This document shows, in pieces, positions 24,283 through 36,047 of a stretch of 37,401 nt of DNA. Numbering within the stretch: the stretch's first letter is position 1; each line of letters opens with the position of its first letter. The stretch comes from Sphingomonadaceae bacterium. Lineage in GTDB: Bacteria > Pseudomonadota > Alphaproteobacteria > Sphingomonadales > Sphingomonadaceae. Both the position numbers and the translations under genes were made by a program. The notes under the pieces were generated by a model. The model was not told the origin of the DNA. It made no database searches and saw nothing but the letters and a program-made list of their open reading frames with translations. The DNA lies in contig JAFAZF010000033.1 of NCBI GenBank assembly GCA_019239915.1, forward strand, positions 1-37,401. The letters run 5' to 3'.

Positions 24283-24383
24283 GCTCCCCTCCCTGAAAGG
24301 GAGGGGCCCGGGGGCGGGTCGATTGGCGAAGTGGCCTCTTTTATCTCCACCCACCAAAACCCCTCCCTTCGAGGGAGGGGCTC
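24283..24383. repeat. Inverted pair of palindromic repeats, REPIN-like, no gene inside
   Basis: Two copies of a palindrome face each other. The left copy has stem CCCCTCCCT / AGGGAGGGG at 24286-24306, followed by a G-rich tail GGGGGCGGGT. The right copy has the same stem at 24360-24380, with its C-rich complement tail (CCACCCACC) on the inner side. Both tails point to the centre, where about 29 unrelated bases lie. The same hairpin plus tail occurs at 31963-32006, 32369-32408 and 35964-36001. The unit lies between the CitE-like gene and the M28 peptidase gene. Confidence 0.85.
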
Positions 24384-31901: not shown

Positions 31902-31948
31902 GGGATAGCGCAAAGCGCGCCTTGACGATCCGGTGTCCGATTGCGGTG

Positions 31949-31964
31949 GCTAACTGCCGTTAGC
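31949..31964. terminator. Small hairpin after ptsH
   Basis: GCTAAC-TGCC-GTTAGC forms a 6-bp stem about 48 bases after the HPr stop, directly beside the first palindromic repeat (31963). Between the HPr stop and this hairpin is a further GCGC-AAA-GCGC. Together with the strong repeat hairpin these probably end transcription of the PTS cluster. There is no T-run. Confidence 0.35.
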
Positions 31965-32006
31965 TCCCCTCCCTAACAGGGAGGGGGCTGGGGGTGGGTT
32001 GCGGCG
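31963..32006 (+). repeat. Palindromic repeat, left end of the DUF559 unit
   Basis: The stem is CCCCTCCCT / AGGGAGGGG at 31966-31986 with loop AAC, then an inner tail GGGGGTGGGTTGCGG. It is the inverted counterpart of the copy at 32369-32408 and differs from it by about one inserted G plus loop bases. The DUF559 stop codon (TAG, 31975-31973) lies at the stem-loop boundary. Confidence 0.88.
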
Positions 32007-32374
32007 CGGGCGACCGCCTCGTCGATCGCCGCGACCACAGCTGCAAGCGCGTTCCGCACCTCGCTGTTCCAGAAGCGCAGGACGGTCCATCCGCGTCGCT
32101 CGAGTTCAGCGGTGCGGGTCGCGTCCTCATCGGCGCGAATGCCGTGCTGGCCGCCATCGACCTCGATGGCGATCTTCAGGCTCCGGCAGGCGAAATCGAG
32201 AATGAAGCGATCAACAACGAGCTGCCGGGTGAAGCGCGGCCGCTGCTGACAAAGCACGCTCCACAGCAGACGCTCCTCGAACGTCGATCCGGCGCCAAGC
32301 GACGCGCGTTGCTCGTCAGCTCCGGCGGAACCCGCTCCATCGGCGCAGCCTAGCGACCGCTCCGTGTGCCGCAA
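31973..32374 (-). CDS. DUF559 (endonuclease-like) domain protein, possibly frameshifted
   Basis: This protein of about 133 residues has the PD-(D/E)XK-like DUF559 fold, related to very-short-patch-repair and restriction endonucleases. Core segments are TFEERLLWSVLCQQRPRFTR, FILDFACRSLKIAIEVDGGQ (the catalytic D...E-x-D/G strand) with QHG following, and TVLRFWNSEV near the end. The open frame starts at TTG 32374, inside the right repeat, and ends inside the left repeat. A better N-terminus lies in another frame: ATG 32340 gives MERVPPELTSNARRL. That would join to GAGSTFEERLLW if one G were restored near 32294-32298. The gene may therefore be frameshifted. It is bounded at both ends by inverted palindromic repeats. 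Nuclease function is inferred from the family only. Confidence 0.78.
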   Translation of the reverse strand: MRHTERSLGCADGAGSAGADEQRASLGAGSTFEERLLWSVLCQQRPRFTRQLVVDRFILDFACRSLKIAIEVDGGQHGIRADEDATRTAELERRGWTVLRFWNSEVRNALAAVVAAIDEAVARAATHPQPPPC

Positions 32375-32408
32375 CCCACCCCCGGCCCCTCCCTTGCAGG
32401 GAGGGGAG
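32369..32408 (-). repeat. Palindromic repeat, right end of the DUF559 unit
   Basis: The stem is CCCCTCCCT / AGGGAGGGG at 32386-32406 with loop TGC. The tail on the inner (left) side is CCGCAACCCACCCCC, the complement of the left copy's tail. It is identical over 38 bases to the copy at 35964-36001. The DUF559 frame's TTG initiation codon (32374-32372) lies in this tail. Confidence 0.88.
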
Positions 32409-32495
32409 AAGAACGGCCGTAACTGGGGCGGAAGCAGACGTGTCGCAATAGTCCCGCGCTTGCCGGGTTCCGCGTTATGCGCCTACGGCCTTTCG

Positions 32496-35867: not shown

Positions 35868-35921
35868 GCGGAAGGTTCACGTCTCCGACCGCGAAATAGA
35901 CAGTGTATCGTGACCTTCCGC
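35868..35921. terminator. Stem-loop after the DUF326 gene
   Basis: GCGGAAGGT-T-CACG at 35868-35881 pairs with CGTG-ACCTTCCGC at 35909-35921: 13 base pairs with one bulged T, and a 27-base loop. A near copy of the left arm (GGAAAGGTCAC, 35855-35865) could pair with the same right arm instead. It may end transcription, or be an alternative-pairing element. No T-run follows. Confidence 0.4.
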
Positions 35922-35938
35922 GCAGCGCGCTCGGTCGG

Positions 35939-36029
35939 CCTAGCTTAGGGAGCGCTCCGAGCGCCGCAACCCACCCCCGGCCCCTCCCTTGCAGGGAGGG
36001 GGGATGAACGTCCGCTACTGGGGCGAAAG
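35939..36029. repeat. Longer solo copy of the DUF559-flanking repeat
   Basis: The core at 35964-36001 is identical to the right end of the DUF559 unit (38 bases, stem CCCCTCCCT / AGGGAGGGG, loop TGC). Similarity continues on both sides. Outside it, GAACG-CCG-ACTGGGGCG-AAGC matches at about 21 of 25 positions, and inside it CCTAGC and CTCCG precede the shared CCGCAACCC. It looks like one end of a second, now lost, DUF559 unit. Confidence 0.75.
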
Positions 36030-36047
36030 CGGCCAAGAGCTCGCGGC

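Follow-up and report, generated by a model that had tools for sequence, protein, structure and literature searches.

The window analysed here, a stretch of 37,401 nucleotides from a Sphingomonadaceae genome, contains between ptsH and a SpoU-type methyltransferase gene a short gene enclosed by two inverted repeats. The open reading frame (ORF; 31973-32374, minus strand, 133 aa when counted from the earliest possible start) belongs to DUF559 (PF04480; 94 bits, E 5e-27), the family match spanning 32015-32299, and is predicted to encode a Vsr-like nuclease of the PD-(D/E)XK superfamily. When the 133-aa product was compared with Pfam only DUF559 was obtained, along with MTES_1575 below the cut-off, and no known transposase or integrase was found in this product. 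A plus-strand ORF (31994-32353) overlaps the gene. The left arm, placed on the 3' side of the gene (31964-32006, plus strand), is formed by a hairpin, with CCCCTCCCT at 31966-31974 and AGGGAGGGG at 31978-31986, and by a gene-facing mirror-repeat tail, GGGGGTGGGT at 31990-31999. It reads CCCCTCCCT-AAC-AGGGAGGGG-GCT-GGGGGTGGGT and its single-strand fold has a predicted energy of -10.8 kcal/mol (z -2.05). The right arm, on the 5' side (32368-32408, minus strand), has its hairpin at 32386-32394 and 32398-32406 and its tail, also facing the gene, at 32374-32383; on the minus strand it reads CCCCTCCCT-GCA-AGGGAGGGG-CC-GGGGGTGGGT, and its single-strand fold has a z of -1.63. The original prediction for this locus, of two near-identical hairpin-plus-tail repeats facing inward around one gene, is borne out by both arms and the single DUF559 ORF between them. 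The ends that it gave for the ORF stand in part: the stop codon lies within the left hairpin, and the left arm encodes the C-terminal HPQPPPC, whereas TTG 32374 is the first possible start and does not fix the true one. The longest reading of the SpoU gene starts at GTG 32364 and crosses the right arm (32364-32495); ATG 32496 is probably the likelier start.

As judged by eye, each window arm is a hairpin followed by a third strand that is mirror-symmetric to the purine arm. The typical arm, from the outside inwards, has a pyrimidine tract, a loop, a purine tract, a second loop and a G-rich tail. A purine stem was found in 215 of 254 arms (127 units), 183 of which are asymmetric and represent 62 distinct stems. 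In 117 of these 183 arms the tail fits the mirror of the tract better than its direct copy, in 10 it fits worse and 56 are ties; counted by distinct stem, 46 fit better, 4 worse and 12 are ties. The mean tail match is 0.88 to the arm's own mirror, 0.77 to the direct copy and 0.76 to the mirror of other arms, although a formal p for this mirror rule would be overstated, since related arms are not independent. Composite arms obey the rule by eye if their small hairpin is counted as the second loop. As far as can be read from the sequence, this design is the antiparallel purine triplex layout of the PIT/TM (TM_ECO) intrastrand triplex repeats (Holder 2015, PMC4666352; Hoyne 2000 cited there), for which a TM_ECO triplex in solution has been reported in vitro (PMC4666352). 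The mirror rule over 62 stems is comparative evidence for triplex geometry being kept. A strict G-quadruplex motif is also present in 48% of the 254 arms, versus 11% on the other strand and 8% in shuffles; the mirror rule is preferred as the shared feature because it covers more arm types.

The same arm type occurs elsewhere in the window. A gene-less inverted pair is located at 24284-24381 (fold z -3.70; none of 200 shuffles reached its stability), as had been predicted. The copy at 35963-36003, described beforehand as a solo repeat, is really the arm of a shortened gene unit (35908-36030, minus strand), which also includes about 55 nt resembling the 5' end of the DUF559 ORF and sequence from outside the arm, and whose 123 nt match 32313-32435 at 82% identity. 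The whole genome to which the window belongs (3.6 Mb in 85 contigs) contains 12 matches to DUF559, and all 12 loci lie between two inward-facing arms with an inverted-flank score of at least 17, the value used throughout for calling a locus bracketed. The arm types vary between genes and are the same on both sides of each gene. The window type is found in five, the remaining types being CCCTCTCCC, CCCCTCTCCC, a doubled CCCCTCCCC and a composite with a second small hairpin. At chance level, 8 of 3840 intervals (315 nt, from 400 kb of this genome) reach a score of 17, namely one DUF559 unit, four intervals in one cluster of palindromes (gene-less pairs) and three unrelated ones. A pattern scan of the same 400 kb for tail-inward arm pairs returned seven gene-less pairs (gap 53-88 nt) and one DUF559 unit (406 nt), having overlooked a second DUF559 unit there (L012).

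Gene-less pairs are common in this genome, where 19 distinct ones of 94-102 nt, with near-constant spacing, were found at other loci. Similarly, 15 of the 16 viewed in genome G004 measure 101-106 nt and one measures 123 nt. Two or more units of one kind are present at unrelated loci within one genome. Moreover, five contigs of the window's genome (C44, C47, C49, C19 and C84) terminate inside further units, and C44 and C47 have ends that share 96% identity over 177 nt; we infer that the assembly was broken by near-identical unit copies. A row of clustered composite-type gene-less pairs was seen in G000 at 192438-193766 of contig C81 (L179). One bracketed DUF559 copy (L005; G000, contig C10, 5830-6138) has an in-frame TAG, on the basis of which units may decay in place.

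The gene units of the window's type have about 25 nt in common outside the arms (TTTCGCCCA-like upstream and GGTGG-like downstream). In the window this outer sequence, with approximate boundaries, is located beside the left arm at 31938-31963 (plus strand, …GGTGG..AACTGCCGTTAGC; 7 downstream sides compared) and beside the right arm at 32409-32435 (GCTTCCGCCCCAGTTACGGCCGTTC on the minus strand; 9 upstream sides compared). The loci compared with it were L005, L006, L007, L009, L014, L016, L018, L019, L023 and L031. It is seemingly missing from gene-less pairs and may mark where the gene unit really ends. The ungapped identity of the outer 30 nt was 0.41 and 0.36 for gene units versus 0.29 for gene-less pairs, a test that is weak in part because of one-base shifts. 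The idea that the outer sequence is an independent dispersed repeat was discarded, as TTGGTGGANAGC occurs once in 400 kb, adjoining a DUF559 unit, and GCTTTCGCCCA twice versus once for the reversed control (400 kb).

The bracketing extends well beyond one genome. In the genus (10 genomes including the one under study) DUF559 was found in 8 genomes, with 26 of 30 loci scoring at least 17 (14 of 18 beyond the window's own genome) and a pair visible by eye in 28 of 30; the two loci where none is seen are L049, a partial match, and L054, whose match is marginal and lies in a 1977-aa ORF. In a sample of the phylum Pseudomonadota, DUF559 was present in 47 of 200 genomes (E up to 1e-10). In this sample, 45 of the 69 loci examined among the 113 matches listed outside the window's genome score at least 17 and 24 fall below, the proportion being 15 of 29 for loci fetched automatically and 30 of 40 for those picked by hand, mostly full-length hits. 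None of 30 Vsr loci of the same sample reached 15 under a more generous form of the scoring. The test put forward with the original prediction, whether DUF559 genes are bracketed more often than others, came out in favour of DUF559 (12 of 12 in the window's genome and 45 of 69 in the phylum sample versus 0 of 30 Vsr loci). Controls with shifted intervals reached 17 in 0 of 120, 1 of 116 and 0 of 293 cases in three sets of intervals.

The third of these controls belongs to the named loci, chosen as the 80 best among 573 confirmed relatives found with one query, which itself came from a bracketed unit. Two of the 80 lie too near a contig end, and of the 78 that could be assessed 56 score at least 17 and 22 score below, Dadabacteria L311 and Anaerolineales L332 among the latter. 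Bracketed loci, some of them from other phyla, were found in bins labelled Nitrospirae/Nitrospirales (L293, L319, L331), Chloroflexi and SAR202 (L284, L285, L306), Planctomycetota (L302), Melainabacteria or Gastranaerophilales (L286, L287), Omnitrophota (L320) and Desulfobacterales (L265, L268), although the labels of metagenome bins may be wrong. Neither this reach across phyla nor the triplex design of the arms was part of the original prediction. The inverted-flank scores of Legionella anisa (L281, 125) and of the Planctomycetota bin (L302, 83.5) are very high, and these are perhaps recent units with long inverted ends. Spread by plasmids (45 of 72,556 records) and a role in anti-phage defence (weak PADLOC hits only) were both considered and rejected.

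The similarity of the arms follows that of the nucleases. Over 71 units the rho between arm and protein similarity is 0.32 (largest of 300 permutations 0.18); within genomes it rises to 0.76 (96 pairs, 15 genomes; mean of 2000 permutations 0.15, largest 0.63), and it is 0.70 over 58 pairs after the removal of four of the near-identical copies. In addition, in 60 of the 71 units the arms are more alike than average to those of the unit with the nearest protein in another genome. The correlation comes partly from the copying of whole units, and divergent types show the same trend. The pairing with the arms is widespread and, among the genes tested, specific to DUF559; arms and nuclease match in type and diversify together. 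A passive association, in which terminator-like or structural repeats gather by DUF559 or the gene is cargo of a repeat family that another agent mobilises, with DUF559 itself acting in DNA repair as proposed for VsrA, would have to account for arms that stand on both sides, face inward, are of the same type and co-vary with the protein, as well as for unbracketed Vsr genes and for gene-less pairs of the same architecture. It can draw on VsrA of Caulobacter, a protein with a DUF559 domain and a link to a DNA-damage response (PMC12907096), and on similar palindromes that were guessed to be terminators (PMC2869309), and we regard it as quite improbable.

Both gene units and gene-less pairs are scattered over unrelated loci, and relatives differ in whether they have them. 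In a rhizobial genus, one unit of G206 measures 568 nt between the outer ends of its arms, and G336 has no unit at the corresponding site, the flanks there being 6 nt apart. Among 27 loci of relatives with both flanks readable, 18 have at most 40 nt between them, and the other nine have 118-139 nt (three), 446-641 nt of other sequence (five) or 1417 nt (one). At a second locus, whose flanks are 98.5% and 96.3% identical, a DUF559 unit in G060 stands against a gene-less pair with other arms in G080. When 12 gene-less pairs of G004 were sought in the close species G006, seven were absent, one site had a single palindrome, two had pairs of the same type, another carried a pair of a different type, and the last was not located. 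The predicted sites without the unit do exist in relatives, as in G336, and gene-less pairs differ between G004 and G006. In two cases (L072 in G060 with L354 in G080, and L220 in G004 with L247 in G006) one intergenic site holds differing arm types according to the species, as if intergenic sites were reused by differing arm types. For the ptsH-SpoU site itself the proposed comparison of synteny succeeded in part: the unit is absent at 7 readable loci of relatives, from 13 viewed among 29 retrieved, whereas the divergence is too high to fix the insertion ends. In some relatives (L132, L133, L138, L139) this intergenic site has palindromic repeats of other families, and it looks like a hot spot. 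The target-site duplication that had been considered did not emerge in 71 units (mean longest shared outer word 3.07 versus 2.65, sd 0.30, for shuffled partners), and no fixed junction of the units was found. GCGGCACC, repeated over 8 nt next to the G206 unit, was dismissed as a target duplication, not being general.

The number of palindromes per genome, from G000 to G009, is 99, 12, 0, 20, 50, 0, 30, 5, 28 and 24. The two zeros correspond to G002, with no DUF559 match, and G005, with a partial and unbracketed match; G006, a fragmented draft of 880 contigs, has 30 palindromes and no DUF559 hit. In the larger sample at least 5 archetype palindromes were found in 24 of 47 genomes with DUF559 versus 9 of 153 without, a comparison in which shared ancestry is left uncorrected. 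The dependence of repeat number on a DUF559 gene, as anticipated, holds in the genus and in the 200 genomes, with G006 as an exception. Y1_Tnp was found in 0 of 9 genus relatives, and the window's genome has two Y1_Tnp genes elsewhere. The latter, along with the similar anatomy, might suggest a REPIN/RAYT system whose Y1 transposase mobilises the repeats, DUF559 having become trapped between a pair of these. However, seven of the nine relatives free of Y1_Tnp carry 5 to 50 palindromes, and the GTAG (or CGTC) tag at the palindrome foot is absent by eye from the window arms, so that this explanation appears extremely improbable.

As regards the protein, T31, E34, W38, R50, Q51, D60, F61, E71, D73, G74, Q76, H77, D84 and R87 are, among others, invariant in the 56 relatives kept. 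The AlphaFold2 model has a mean pLDDT of 81.8 and a pTM of 0.73, with ten-residue pLDDT means of at least 89 from residue 31 to 130 except for 73 at 71-80, a segment that holds conserved residues. The best Foldseek match is the domain of the homing endonuclease I-Bth0305I (3r3p; E 2e-4, TM 0.82 by target length), followed by 3hrl (2.9e-4), Vsr being weak (E 0.15 and 0.46). The sequence profile places 3hrl, a putative endonuclease, first (3e-40) and 3r3p second (2.6e-4), and rows for a toxin B-subunit (E 0.07 or worse) were set aside as chance hits. The Vsr family model TIGR00632 does not match the ORF product (15 bits against a cut-off of 97.85). By its predicted structure the DUF559 protein has a Vsr-like catalytic fold. 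I-Bth0305I (PDB 3r3p) is an EDxHD / Vsr-like homing endonuclease and is part of a group I intron.

This likeness in fold, which the sequence profile also reflects (E 2.6e-4), raises the alternative of a homing-type spread, with DUF559 cutting gene-less pairs or arms, repair proceeding from the gene-bearing copy, and the gene in this way invading an independent repeat family. Gene-less pairs of matching type are indeed common. The outer sequence, however, is common to gene units and missing from gene-less pairs (in the weak ungapped test), sites free of the unit are often without any pair (18 of the 27 readable loci at 40 nt or less), and a single site is a gene unit in G060 and a gene-less pair with other arms in G080. 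We consider such homing unlikely.

The explanation that we favour, and regard as reasonably probable, is a nuclease-encoding mobile family with triplex-type ends whose mobility is driven by the nuclease. Each unit would be a copy of this family, with the DUF559 gene between inverted arms, in each of which a hairpin and its mirror-repeat third strand could form an intrastrand triplex. The nuclease would recognise its own arm type once one strand is exposed and folded, for instance at a replication fork, and would nick at the arm base. Host repair could then join the released or copied unit into new intergenic sites, with no target duplication. For the gene-less pairs, about 100 nt long, mobility would be provided in trans by a nuclease of matching type. 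Recognition and cutting of the arms by the nuclease, and their spread as a result, are our inference, as action on the repeats was in the original prediction. This reading is supported by the counts of bracketing against the Vsr and shifted controls, by arms that track the nuclease, by the mirror rule, by copies at several loci, by presence and absence between relatives, by the occurrence of palindromes with DUF559, by Y1_Tnp in 0 of 9 relatives and by the fold resembling a homing endonuclease. It is weakened by the unbracketed loci (24 of 69 in the phylum and 22 of 78 named, from the best 80 of 573) and by the lower share among automatically fetched loci (15 of 29 versus 30 of 40 picked). It is also weakened by the palindromes of G006 without DUF559, by the 9 of 153 DUF559-free genomes with at least 5 archetype palindromes, by the lack of a target duplication or fixed junction, and by the one-sided TM motif of ycjD described below.

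The PIT/TM repeats resemble the DUF559 arms in having a hairpin and a purine third strand, in being intergenic and in forming inverted pairs. TM_ECO has 23 copies and five inverted pairs in E. coli K-12, and such repeats were reported in more than 260 bacterial genomes (PMC4666352). They differ in having been described without a partner gene, whereas the DUF559 arms enclose a nuclease gene; that report gives no mobility function near the E. coli TM_ECO copies, and the words 'DUF' and 'nuclease' are absent from it (PMC4666352). The TM_ECO consensus, CCCTCNCCCN3-6GGGNGAGGGN3GGGNGAGGG, is unmatched by the window stem CCCCTCCC, and other DUF559 units, such as L265 and L268, come near it. The ycjD gene of E. 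coli K-12 is annotated as DUF559 and is, to our knowledge, the only DUF559 gene of this strain. TM_ECO no. 9 (1351205-1351240) is placed between fabI and ycjD; on the far side there is a different hairpin, and the TM motif is thus on one side only. The chance of a given gene adjoining a TM site is about 0.8% (18 sites, 4760 annotated features). Upstream of ycjD, at the expected arm position, a hairpin CACCTCATTCTGACAA…TTTTGTCAGAATGAGGTG was noted (L336; NC_000913.3, 1351760-1351828). The fabI-ycjD-sapF stretch is covered by at least 80% in 3333 of 5426 genomes. The fabI-sapF interval was not accepted as a clean empty site, since in the strain viewed without ycjD it holds an efflux operon, which has been described at this site (PMC12817139). 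YcjD was already handled as a known PD-(D/E)XK member in 2005 (PMC1189080). With low confidence, ycjD can be taken as a relict.

A broader proposal is more tentative and falls somewhat short of an even chance: that these units are an unrecognised mobile class of several phyla, in which a Vsr-like DUF559 protein would read triplexes of its own inverted ends, and that they are the autonomous partner of the PIT/TM repeats, ycjD being a relict. The origin of PIT/TM repeats is unexplained, and a type-matched nuclease gene inside inverted pairs offers a testable cause of their spread. DUF559, named for its unknown function, gains a candidate role, and REPIN/RAYT would have an independent counterpart that uses a different enzyme. 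Should the nuclease turn out to read triplex structure, it would be an example of a naturally occurring triplex-directed enzyme.

Among known systems, insertion sequences and transposons share with the unit inverted ends and copies at several loci, but the ORF of the unit matches no known transposase or integrase, and no target-site duplication was found. Vsr and VsrA have a related fold, and VsrA a DUF559 domain (PMC12907096), whereas the Vsr (PF03852) genes are unbracketed (0 of 30). The window DUF559 protein also resembles I-Bth0305I in fold and sequence profile. The latter is a group I intron enzyme, while the DUF559 gene lies between inverted repeats. REPIN/RAYT systems (REPtrons, TIRtrons) likewise have inverted palindromes around a small gene, gene-less pairs and single intergenic copies. 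They differ in having a Y1 (HUH) transposase in place of the DUF559 nuclease, and the GTAG tag of REP palindromes (PMC3733652) where the DUF559 arms have a mirror-repeat third strand. The description of the locus as a REPIN/RAYT-like unit with a nuclease for a transposase therefore holds for the anatomy, including the near-constant gene-less pairs, and fails for membership (no Y1, no GTAG). In the open-access PMC literature, as judged by titles and the beginnings of abstracts, nothing linked DUF559 to flanking repeats; among the repeat and triplex papers listed from that literature, none named a mobilising gene. The unit fits in full none of the transposon or homing classes tested; it works like a REPIN/RAYT system without being a member and, on condition of the open-access literature searched, it would be a new kind of element.
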